Source: Rhodospirillaceae bacterium
Lineage (GTDB): Bacteria; Pseudomonadota; Alphaproteobacteria; Dongiales; Dongiaceae
Assembly (NCBI GenBank): GCA_008012315.1
Contig: SSEL01000003.1
Coordinates: forward strand, 1-64,000
Length of the DNA: 64,000 nt
Direction: 5' to 3'
Part shown: positions 3,153-55,291 of the stretch, piece after piece
Layout of the letters: each line of letters starts with the position of its first letter
Numbering within the stretch: position 1 is the stretch's first letter
Program-made: the position numbers and the translations under genes
The notes under the pieces: generated by a model
Seen by the model: the letters and a program-made list of their open reading frames with translations, nothing else
What the model was told of the DNA's origin: nothing
Database searches by the model: none

Positions 3153-3292
3153 CTAGAGCGCGATGGTTTCAAGTTGAGGCAAGCCTGCTTCAACTTGAAA
3201 GCTGAATCGCCCTCTATCTTGTTGAAGAGAGACGGATTCAGATCACAGGTGAAATCGCTCAAGCGATTGCACCTGTGATCATCCGGCTCTAG
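3153..3292 (+). repeat. CTAG-ended three-hairpin intergenic repeat, copy A (full length)
   Basis: Full-length member of the dispersed family described under findings. The ends CTAGAGCGCGAT and ATCCGGCTCTAG pair with each other (10 of 12). Arm 1 is TTTCAAGTTGA with TCAACTTGAAA; arm 2 is CTGAATC with GATTCAG, enclosing CCTCT/AGAG; arm 3 is ATCACAGGTG with CACCTGTGAT, enclosing AATCGCT/AGCGATT. The element lies between the M23 terminator and the 3' end of clpB, in no gene. It is most similar to copy F (55152-55291). Confidence 0.85.
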
Positions 3293-26516: not shown

Positions 26517-27299
26517 ATGCCTGCTTTATCTGCCATGCTACCCCGGGAATTCGAAGACCTGCTGACGCCGGCAGGGCGGCGGGTGCTGGCCGGCCGGGAT
26601 CCCGCCATCTGCCAGGCCTTGGCCGATCCCCGGCGGCGTTTCATCGCGCTGGACGGCATGGTGGCACCGCGCAAGGCGGAGGCTTTACGCAAGCTCCTGG
26701 AAGCCGCGATGCTGCCGCATCTCAGCCGCATGGAAGCGCCGATCCCGCCGGAAACTATCTGGGAGATGCAGGCGGATTACGAAGAATGGCTGCCGAAGAC
26801 TGCGCGGGTGATGACCGCCTATCTGGAGAACCGCCGCAGCAGGGCCCTGGCGGTGGCGCGGGAGATCGGCCTCATCGATCTCCTGACCAGCGAGAGCTTC
26901 GTCGCCTTCGCCGAGCAGGTCGCGGGCCGCAGGCTCGACCGCAAAGGCGGCCAGCAGGTGCTTTGCTACGGGCCGGGCGATTATGCCGGGCCGCATAACG
27001 ACCATCATCCCGGGAATGCCCGCGCCGCCAAAGGCTATCTCGATATCCACCTGTCGCTCGCCAACCGCTTCGTGCAGCACCAGTACCTGGTCTATGCCAA
27101 AGGCGGCCATTTCACCGAGATCGTCCCGGTGCATAGCTTGGGCGGCCTCACCATCTACCGGCTGCCCTTCTGGCACTACACGACGCCGCTGACGGCCTTG
27201 CCCGGCAAGGAGGCGCAGGCGCGGCGCTGGCTGCTGCTCGGCACCTTCCTTTTTGCCGATACCAAAACGAAAAGACGCACGCGAGCCGGATCGTTTTAG
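26517..27299 (+). CDS. 2OG-Fe(II) oxygenase-like protein
   Basis: 260 aa, read as a double-stranded beta-helix dioxygenase. The iron-binding pattern is visible: 'GPHNDHHPG' gives H160-x-D162, 'FWHYTTP' gives a distal H220, and an Arg (about 236) in 'ARRWLLLGTF' suits 2-oxoglutarate binding. The N-terminal 130 residues are helical. I cannot name the substrate; prolyl hydroxylase-like and hypothetical members share this pattern. The last five codons and the stop (TAG 27297-27299) lie inside the intergenic repeat copy B, so its C-terminus has been altered by that element. Confidence 0.7.
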   Translation: MPALSAMLPREFEDLLTPAGRRVLAGRDPAICQALADPRRRFIALDGMVAPRKAEALRKLLEAAMLPHLSRMEAPIPPETIWEMQADYEEWLPKTARVMTAYLENRRSRALAVAREIGLIDLLTSESFVAFAEQVAGRRLDRKGGQQVLCYGPGDYAGPHNDHHPGNARAAKGYLDIHLSLANRFVQHQYLVYAKGGHFTEIVPVHSLGGLTIYRLPFWHYTTPLTALPGKEAQARRWLLLGTFLFADTKTKRRTRAGSF

Positions 27300-27416
27300 A
27301 CGGAATCGCTTGGCGATTTTGCCTAAAACGTGAATCCGCCTCTGATTAATAAGATAGAGGGCGATTCACGTCTGTGATCGAAGCACAATGCTGCCATCAA
27401 AGACGATCGCGCTCTA
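27284..27416 (-). repeat. three-hairpin intergenic repeat, copy B (inverted, overlaps two stop codons)
   Basis: A member of the CTAG-ended family on the minus strand. Arm 3 (GTTTTAGGC with GTCTAAAAC, enclosing AATCGC/GCGATT) and arm 2 (ACGTGAATC with GATTCACGT) are well kept; arm 1 (GTCTTTGAT with ATCACAGAC) is imperfect. The outer CTAG is changed at both ends. The left end supplies the stop of the oxygenase gene and the right end supplies the stop (TAG 27416-27414) of the YetF-like gene, so it joins two converging genes with no other spacer. Confidence 0.8.
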
Positions 27417-27902
27417 ACCGCGCTTGATCACCGAAATGCTGCCATTGGTCTCCAGGACCGCGAGACGCACCTCCTCGGCCCGCTCGCAACCATTGCGCCG
27501 CAAGGCCGCCATCAATTCATCGCGGGTGATGCCTTCCTGCACCATCACCGCATGATAGACATGGCCGTCGCTGATCAGCACCCGTGGCTGGCCATCGACC
27601 AGGCGCTCCAGTTTCGGATGGATGCTGGTGAGGCGGCCGACCAGGGTGTTCAAGCCGACCAGCGTGACCGCTGAGATCAGTCCGCCGAGCAGCGAGTTGT
27701 CGCCGCCATTCATCGAATTCTGCACGGCATTGCTGAGGATCAGCAGCAGCACCAGGTCGAACGGCGTCAACTGGCCGACCTGGCGCTTGCCGGTGAGACG
27801 CAGGGCGACCAGCAGGAAGACATAGACGACGAGCGCCCGGAGCACGAACTCCCACCAAGGGAGGCTGATCGCCAGCAATGACGAAAGCCGGTCGGCGCTC
27901 AT
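27414..27902 (-). CDS. YetF-like membrane protein (DUF421)
   Basis: 162 aa. Membrane segments are at about 15-35 ('WEFVLRALVVYVFLLVALRL'), 45-62 and 70-90, followed by a small cytoplasmic domain containing 'DGQPRVLISDGHVYHAVMVQEGITRDELMAALRRNG', the DUF421/YetF signature. YetF-type proteins of Bacillus belong to a family linked to spore-germination and stress proteins, but the biochemical role is unknown. The stop codon is the TAG at the end of repeat copy B. Confidence 0.9.
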   Translation of the reverse strand: MSADRLSSLLAISLPWWEFVLRALVVYVFLLVALRLTGKRQVGQLTPFDLVLLLILSNAVQNSMNGGDNSLLGGLISAVTLVGLNTLVGRLTSIHPKLERLVDGQPRVLISDGHVYHAVMVQEGITRDELMAALRRNGCERAEEVRLAVLETNGSISVIKRG

Positions 27903-36982: not shown

Positions 36983-37168
36983 GAAATGTCCTTTCTTTTG
37001 CCAGGCGATCCGTGTGCCTGTCGAAAGATAGAACGGGGGCGGCAGGGGAATCCTGCGCGGCCCCTGCAGGCGTATCTCTCACGAAACGGTGAGGGCGGCC
37101 GCACCGGCAGCGCCGGACGGGGAGCCCAGCGGCGGCTAAACCGGTGTTTTCAGGCCGACAGGCTGCCG

Positions 37169-37265
37169 GAGCGCGATCGTGCTCTATCTTAATCTTATGG
37201 ATGAGAGGCGGATTCACGTCTTAGACAAAATCGCAAAGCGATTCCGTCTAAAACGATCCGCTCTA
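37169..37265 (+). repeat. three-hairpin intergenic repeat, copy C (arm 1 deleted)
   Basis: A shortened member of the family: the left end GAGCGCGATCG and right end GATCCGCTCTA remain. Arm 1 is missing and the left half of arm 2 is shortened; arm 3 (GTCTTAGAC with GTCTAAAAC, enclosing AATCGC/GCGATT) is intact. It lies just before the accA stop on the plus strand side. Confidence 0.75.
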
Positions 37266-37275
37266 ATCGACTGCC

Positions 37276-45865: not shown

Positions 45866-46516
45866 ATGACCAGCTATCCCACCGACCTGCCCCTGCCGGC
45901 ACCGCGCGAAGAGATACATCAGCGCAACTATGATTTTCGCGGCTTCCACCGTGCCGATGGTCTCTATGACATCGAAGGACGGATGACCGACGTCAAGACC
46001 TATGACTTTCCCAACCAGTGGCGCGGCACCATCCCGGCGGGCGAGCCCTATCACGACATGCGCATCCGCCTGACATTGGATGACGATTTCGCCATCGTCG
46101 AGATTGCTGTGGTAACGGCGGCCAGCCCCTATGAAATCTGCCCGGCGATCAACCCGGCCTTCCAGCAGTTGCGCGGCGCCCGCGTCGGCCCCGGCTGGAG
46201 CCGCGTGCTGCGGCAGCATTTCAGCGGCAGCCATGGCTGCACCCATCATGTCGAGATGCTGCGCGCCATGGGCACGGTGGCGTTCCAGACGATCTACAGC
46301 CAGCGCGAACGGATGAAGCGCGCGCAAATAAAACATGCGGGCGGCGAAAGCAAGGCGGAAGGCCCGCCGGCCGATCCCGGCGATGCGAGTGGCGGCACGC
46401 GGCGCAAGCCCGGCTTCCTCGATACCTGCCACGCCCTCGCATCGGATGGCGAGATCGTCCGCCAGCACTGGCCGGAATTCTATACCGGGCCGGCCGAGAC
46501 GGATCGCGACTGCTAG
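45866..46516 (+). CDS. DUF2889 family protein
   Basis: 216 aa, family of unknown function. Recognised by 'LPLPAPREEIHQRNYDFRGFHRADGLYDIEGRMTDVKTYDF', 'GEPYHDMRIRLTLDDDFAIVEIAVVTAASPYEICPAI' and 'GCTHHVEMLRAMGTVAFQTI'. Conserved His and Cys ('HGCTHH', about 125-131) could bind metal. The stop is the TAG of repeat copy D (46514-46516), so the last codons reach the repeat edge. It follows the CNNM gene by 17 nt. Confidence 0.86.
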   Translation: MTSYPTDLPLPAPREEIHQRNYDFRGFHRADGLYDIEGRMTDVKTYDFPNQWRGTIPAGEPYHDMRIRLTLDDDFAIVEIAVVTAASPYEICPAINPAFQQLRGARVGPGWSRVLRQHFSGSHGCTHHVEMLRAMGTVAFQTIYSQRERMKRAQIKHAGGESKAEGPPADPGDASGGTRRKPGFLDTCHALASDGEIVRQHWPEFYTGPAETDRDC

Positions 46517-46650
46517 AGCGCGATCGTCTTTGATAGAAGCACTTTGCTTCCATCAAAGACGTGAATCGCCCTCTACCTTATGGATGAGAGGCGGATTCAC
46601 GTTTTAGACAAAATCGCAAAGCGATTCCGTCTAAAACGATCCGGCTCTAG
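46513..46650 (+). repeat. three-hairpin intergenic repeat, copy D (full length)
   Basis: CTAG-ended at both ends. Arm 1 is GTCTTTGAT with ATCAAAGAC, enclosing GAAGC/GCTTC; arm 2 is ACGTGAATC with GATTCACGT, enclosing GCCCTCT/AGAGGC; arm 3 is GTTTTAGAC with GTCTAAAAC, enclosing AATCGC/GCGATT. Compared with copies A and F, arms 1 and 3 differ in sequence but still pair perfectly. The 5' CTAG supplies the stop codon of the DUF2889 gene. Confidence 0.88.
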
Positions 46651-50141: not shown

Positions 50142-50239
50142 CTGGAGCGCGATGATTTCAAACAGGAGCAAGTTTGCTTCTATTTGAAAGCTGAATCGCC
50201 CTCTATCTTGTTGAAGAGAGCCGGATGATCCGGCTCTAG
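50142..50239 (+). repeat. three-hairpin intergenic repeat, copy E (arm 3 deleted)
   Basis: The left end is CTGGAGCGCGAT (CTAG changed to CTGG), the right end ATCCGGCTCTAG is intact. Arm 1 is TTTCAAA with TTTGAAA; the left part of arm 2 (CTGAATCGCCCTCT) remains but its right part and all of arm 3 are gone. It lies between the J-domain gene and cobS, about 70 nt before cobS. Confidence 0.78.
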
Positions 50240-55151: not shown

Positions 55152-55291
55152 CTAGAGCGCGATGGTTTCAAGTTGAAGCAGCTTTGCTTCAACTTGAAAG
55201 CTGAATCGCTCTCTATCTTATTGAGTAGAGGCGGATTCAGCTCACAACTGCAATCGCCCCAGCGATTCCACCTGTGAGCATCCGACTCTAG
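55152..55291 (+). repeat. three-hairpin intergenic repeat, copy F (full length)
   Basis: CTAG at both ends. Arm 1 is TTTCAAGTTGA with TCAACTTGAAA; arm 2 is AGCTGAATC with GATTCAGCT; arm 3 is TCACAACTG... with ...CACCTGTGA around AATCGC/GCGATT, less perfect than in copy A. Lies upstream of the dienelactone hydrolase start and downstream of the queuosine transporter stop. Confidence 0.84.

Follow-up and report, generated by a model that had tools for sequence, protein, structure and literature searches.

The window examined here, a stretch of 64,000 nucleotides taken whole, belongs to the draft genome of an alphaproteobacterium, 5.72 Mb in 93 contigs. It begins with a bacterial 16S rRNA gene on the reverse strand (1–434), truncated by the contig start, and carries six copies, A to F, of a short repeat that falls into two subfamilies, I and II. 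All six had been listed in the initial annotation and all were recovered, with the extents of copies B and C corrected to approximately those given here. Copy A (3153–3292, forward strand; subfamily I, full length, 140 bp, 156 bits) sits between the convergent genes for an M23 peptidase and clpB. Copy B (27281–27418, reverse strand; subfamily II, full length, 136 bits) supplies, through its terminal TA, the TAG stop of the reverse-strand gene at 27414–27902. Copy C (37166–37266, forward; subfamily II, 70 bits) is decayed, with a degenerate 5′ half from which arm 1 is gone and an intact hairpin 2, and lies upstream of accA, which is on the opposite strand. Copy D (46513–46650, forward; subfamily II, 138 bp, 153 bits) is again full length, and the TAG of its terminal CTAG (46514–46516) is the stop codon of the forward-strand gene at 45866–46516. 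Copy E (50142–50239, forward; subfamily I, 90 bits), upstream of cobS, has lost the arm of hairpin 2, the third arm of the initial annotation, while the closing stem AGAGCCGGAT/ATCCGGCTCT remains; in this copy and in another at L019:7496-7587 little or nothing of the arm is left beyond the closing stem, as though slippage had deleted the hairpin. Copy F (55152–55291, forward; subfamily I, full length, 140 bp, 149 bits) completes the set. The exact ends described as common to the six, CTAGAGCGCGAT and ATCCGGCTCTAG, hold for copies A and D, while B, C, E and F each differ from them in at least one end position. A search of the window against Rfam returned the 16S gene alone at the gathering threshold, a scan with the element gave weak chance hits only, and a literature search for its sequence found at most stray short strings.

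A covariance model built on 23 full-length copies from the same genome found at least 40 full-length copies scoring above 110 bits, together with no fewer than about 47 that are shortened or decayed (E ≤ 1e-6). The repeat is thus real and far beyond chance: a short, non-coding, multi-copy element of 105–141 bp with TAGAGC/GCTCTA termini that form terminal inverted repeats. Mean pairwise identity is 81% within subfamily I, 92.5% within subfamily II and 67% between the two, the tighter subfamily II suggesting a more recent spread. Copies of the two subfamilies can lie close together, as at L022:8910-9178 (contig C89:12409-12677 of this genome), where some 50 bases separate a shortened subfamily I copy from a full subfamily II copy and hold a GC-rich hairpin of classic form plus a T-run.

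The element consists of two imperfect hairpins in tandem, with a linker of 9–13 bases between them, and has the layout Y-TA-GAGC[NN]GAT-arm1-TGA-ATC[NN]YCTCTA, linker, AGAGR[NN]GAT-TCA-arm2-ATC[NN]GCTC-TA-R. In copy D, as parsed and as supported for both hairpins by covariation, hairpin 1 (46514–46575) is made up of TAGAGCGCGAT, arm 1 (46525–46561), the bulge TGA and ATCGCCCTCTA; after the linker (46576–46586), hairpin 2 (46587–46649) comprises AGAGGCGGAT, the bulge TCA, arm 2 (46600–46638) and ATCCGGCTCTA. The bulges create a GANTC site at the base of each hairpin, GAATC where TGA precedes ATC (46563–46567 in copy D) and GATTC where TCA follows GAT (46594–46598). Each of these sites is kept in 60 of 65 distinct elements from this and other genomes, though the adjoining blocks vary, and further GANTC sites occur inside the arms in 21/65 and 27/65 elements. 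The density is 21.7 per kb in the elements against 1.7 in the window. GANTC is the methylation site of CcrM in alphaproteobacteria (PMC2229807).

That the arms differ between copies while their pairing is kept, as originally proposed, is correct on both counts. In the copies from this genome 91% of cells are paired, against 32–40% when the partners are slid by 1–3 columns, and 120 two-sided changes are seen against a shuffle mean of 44, although the shuffles ignore relatedness and the split into subfamilies explains much of the count. Arms 1 and 2 (arms 1 and 3 of the initial annotation) are 93% paired over the 23 copies and contain 16 pairs with two-sided changes, which partly reflect the difference between subfamilies. 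Within subfamily I alone, 17 two-sided changes in arm cells keep the pairing and 2 disrupt it, alongside 31 one-sided changes, of which 15 are paired and 16 unpaired; for subfamily II the counts are 1 two-sided change against 26 one-sided ones. Compensated changes thus build up as copies age. What keeps the arms paired is probably selection on the hairpin, at the level of DNA or of a transcript, and/or repair of quasi-palindromes by template switching.

The element had been read as a cloverleaf or four-way junction closed by pairing between its outer ends. The outermost 5–6 bases do pair (GAGC/GCTC), and in the 23 full-length copies complementarity holds at 10 of 12 end positions, but the remaining two are invariant mismatches, G.G and C.C, in 23/23. 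GTGAATC and GATTCAC can also pair over the linker, and the two folds lie close in RNA energy in this genome, which made the cloverleaf a fair guess from six copies; with closing blocks that hardly vary and energies so close, the copies of this genome cannot settle the fold. Relatives can. A regular-expression parse of relatives together with our own copies, fixing only GAT/ATC and AGAG/CTCT and leaving the blocks between free, gave the 65 distinct elements, with 22 closing-block combinations. The two free inner positions pair within halves in 259 of 260 cases (64/65, 65/65, 65/65 and 65/65, with G-C, C-G, A-T and T-A types all present), as against 15/130 end to end (9/65 and 6/65) and 16/130 across the middle (10/65 and 6/65). 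The third, outer position of the blocks behaves differently: there the termini of the element are complementary to each other (C with G, 53/62) and a mismatch is kept within each hairpin, so that, read outward, the blocks end in GAGC at the termini and in GAGG or GAGA internally. RNA energies favour the tandem fold in 42 elements and, slightly, the cloverleaf in 22, including several subfamily II copies of the window genome; with DNA parameters the tandem fold is preferred in 65/65. We therefore consider it very unlikely that a cloverleaf, whether as RNA or as extruded DNA, is the selected shape.

The comparison of empty and filled sites proposed in the initial annotation was carried out by searching sister genomes for the flanks joined without the element, and the pairs obtained come from two genera other than that of the window. 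In Xanthobacter autotrophicus AM3 the filled site (L111:3496-3613) reads CATCCTCTAG[..]CTCTAGGGCGAGG, and in both X. oligotrophicus 29k and X. autotrophicus AM5 the same site is empty and reads CATCCTCTAGGTCGAGG, with a single CTAG; this copy just precedes a gene whose product starts MNHLKTAILLAGMTALFMAVGFAIGG, which is putatively HtpX-like. In the second genus (g134), the empty site is CTAG in three genomes (G236, G386 and G313) at locus L313 and in G236 at locus L194. At L310 it is CTC-TA-TGTG in G143 and becomes CTC-TA-element-TA-TGTG on filling, from which it follows that TA alone is common to both sides. At L173, the empty site in G236 is TTAA and the filled right flank CTAG, a pair that fits only with one later substitution; two further sites, L311 and L312, were unreadable. 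The element is thus mobile and inserts at a single TA, which is afterwards present on both sides. The TA is preceded by C or T in 64/65 elements and followed by G or A in 64/65, so the target is YTAR, mostly CTAG. Elsewhere in Xanthobacter, one locus is filled in both AM3 and AM5, the AM5 copy having an internal deletion, and at L138:7742-7973 two tandem elements have one CTAG in common, as expected if one had entered the terminal TA of the other.

The placement of copies relative to genes was assessed in 650 kb around them with a simple codon-based gene caller, whose starts are rough and whose stops are firm. All 48 places are intergenic, the largest overlap with a called gene being 20% of one copy, and 21 of the 48 copies lie in convergent gaps, a class that makes up 46 of the 316 gaps measuring 60 bases or more (p ~1e-6 when gaps are counted, 2e-5 when their length is used). 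In 15 of the 48, copy D among them, the terminal CTAG of the element is the stop codon of the neighbouring gene. Because the first base of the element is G, any insertion into the TA of a TAG or TAA stop would leave a TAG stop behind; with the stop regenerated, the 3′ ends of genes and the gaps between convergent genes would be tolerant landing sites.

Related elements are spread through the alphaproteobacteria in the wide but patchy way that a mobile element would give. At E ≤ 1e-10 the model has matches in 22 genomes, from 20 genera, out of 386 sampled evenly across the class. Of the window's own family, 4 of 17 genomes have matches, and a strict core pattern (GTGAATC..CTCTA..AGAG..GATTCAC), specific but insensitive, occurs in 7/386 with none for its reversed control. 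An exact-match scan of named genomes returned at least 101 stretches, all alphaproteobacterial where the record title is specific enough to tell (some titles give only Proteobacteria or bacterium); among the matches listed are Xanthobacter, Azorhizobium, Aquabacter, Magnetospirillum/Paramagnetospirillum, Phaeospirillum, Telmatospirillum, Acidocella, Terasakiella, Magnetovibrio, Tistlia, Thalassobaculum, Pelagibius, Elstera and others. A plasmid search with copy D of the window gave no match, and one with a Xanthobacter copy gave one 43% partial match, in Ancylobacter.

Judging from the terminal sequences, an IS630-type transposase is the most likely mover of the element. IS630-family (DDE_3, PF13358) insertion sequences of ~1,053–1,057 bp occur in Xanthobacter and in a second carrier genome (G043), in several copies with different flanks and with ends of the form Y-TA|GAGCG. 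One of these, from Xanthobacter AM5 (L259), encodes its HTH and DDE_3 frames in two overlapping halves. Its ends are GAGCGGTAGCCGATCATATTGGATCA and GAGCGGTAGCCGATCATATTGAATCG, and of 26 terminal bases 21 agree with the Xanthobacter element GAGCGCGATCCGATCAGATTGAATCA; in the 21-base tail after GAGCG the match is 16/21, a value that 0 of 200,000 shuffles of the tail reached. The ends of the window's own subfamilies match L259 at just 13–16 of 26 positions, and one subfamily end matches an end of a G043 IS630 at 18/26. No IS630 with GAGC ends was found in the window genome, where the sole PF13358 hit (L170, on the 19-kb contig C33) has no GAGC end within 1.5 kb on either side and, given a stated genome contamination of 3.71%, may be foreign. 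The driver there has accordingly been lost, was collapsed in the assembly or left unassembled, or is different; the number of contigs makes a collapse of IS copies possible.

IS5-family (PF13340) transposases are present in 8 of 8 carriers tested, some of them flanked by CTA, which makes a transposase other than IS630 a possible driver. As a partner for the element the IS5 family was rejected, as its detected ends begin with GGC or GGT and not with GAGC. Insertion sequences of this family (DUF4096) with CTA flanks and GGC-type ends were seen on contig C47 of the window genome (L241) and at five loci in G043 (L229, L237, L245, L251 and L257), and represent a different IS group on the element's target. 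A separate observation concerns an Acidocella copy (L090:299-438), against which GAGCGTTTTCCG, the start of another repeat, abuts directly at the common CTAG. The end of that repeat matches IS630 ends in Xanthobacter (L262 and L266), which hints that a second MITE family uses this target.

We suggest that the element is quite probably a non-autonomous, IS630-type MITE of alphaproteobacteria built of two tandem hairpins; the original view of a dispersed non-autonomous element whose arm changes preserve pairing is in that respect borne out. In this model an IS630-family transposase would recognise the GAGC outer ends and move the element in trans, and the internal block ends, which are GAGG or GAGA and not GAGC, would not act as transposition ends. 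The element lands at TA, mostly in CTAG between genes, with duplication of the TA, and a driving transposase is no longer visible in the genome of the window.

Two other accounts have to be weighed against an IS630-type MITE. The palindromes, the intergenic placement at gene 3′ ends and the mosaic half-copies all recall RIME and BIME repeats. BIMEs are linked to RAYTs, and a TnpA_REP (Y1) transposase that cuts and joins single-stranded hairpins could have produced a repeat of this kind, but the check for a RAYT suggested at the outset found no Y1_Tnp (PF01797) hit in the genome, with E. coli and Caulobacter positive controls detected, and insertion duplicates TA, so that we regard this origin as extremely improbable. 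The other account accepts a mobile origin and holds that copies were afterwards kept as a regulatory or terminator-like RNA or as a CcrM-linked chromosomal site, a domesticated function that would explain both the pairing and the GANTC sites. It could draw on the enrichment in convergent gaps (by gap count), on the presence of GANTC at both bases in elements of otherwise varied sequence and its high density, and on the long-term upkeep of pairs evident from the compensated changes in subfamily I arms. Tolerant landing sites, however, would give this placement too, many copies are decayed, the hairpins are followed by no T-run, and the differences in copies between sister species argue that individual copies are dispensable; we consider such domestication unlikely.

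The initial annotation recognised no named family, which was too strong, as a described family matches the element by anatomy. These are the CcrM-associated intergenic repeats of Caulobacter, CIR1–CIR4 (Chen and Shapiro, 2003, described in PMC2229807): alphaproteobacterial intergenic repeats of ~110 bp, with GANTC and with two inverted-repeat arms and a linker without end-to-end pairing. Compared by description, our element resembles them in size, in its two arms joined by a linker with no selected end-to-end pairing, in GANTC, in its strictly intergenic placement and in its occurrence in alphaproteobacteria. The conserved GANTC of CIRs is at, or partly in, the terminal loop of one arm, whereas in our element each hairpin has a conserved GANTC at its base bulge, and often there is another near an arm tip. 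TA duplication is shown here, while the mechanism of CIR mobility is unsettled, a 2007 review calling for more information on it (PMC2229807). Bru-RS1 and Bru-RS2 of Brucella, palindromic repeats of 103–106 bp linked to the YTAR-targeting, TA-duplicating IS711 (PMC2266754, PMC10800456), are likewise similar by description in size, palindromic structure and intergenic position, but they are hot spots for IS711 insertion, whereas our element itself inserts at YTAR. With IS630 (Tc1/mariner-like) MITEs the element has in common the duplicated TA, short terminal repeats that match an IS630 end, a lack of coding capacity and a high copy number. It differs from them in its two independently covarying hairpins, in outer ends (GAGC) that are not the same as its inner ones (GAGR), where such MITEs have a single simple terminal inverted repeat, in its conserved GANTC sites and in having no visible partner IS in the window genome. 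It is best filed as an element that works like an IS630-type MITE and is CIR-like by anatomy, and not as a proven member of the CIR or Bru-RS families.

Two-armed GANTC repeats have been known in Caulobacter and Brucella for about two decades without an established way of moving. For a repeat with CIR-type anatomy, empty sites now show insertion at a TA that is duplicated in the process, and the ends of the repeat agree with those of IS630s in carrier genomes. With its 22 closing-block combinations the element also provides a natural record of the compensatory evolution of hairpins. The GANTC sites at the hairpin bases may have a functional role. One tentative and rather doubtful form of it is that their CcrM methylation state, which changes with passage of the replication fork, gates access of the transposase or extrusion of the hairpins, a reading comparable to the gating of IS10 and IS50 by Dam. 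If this were so, the element would jump only within a window of the cell cycle, and transposition may thereby be linked to cell-cycle methylation.
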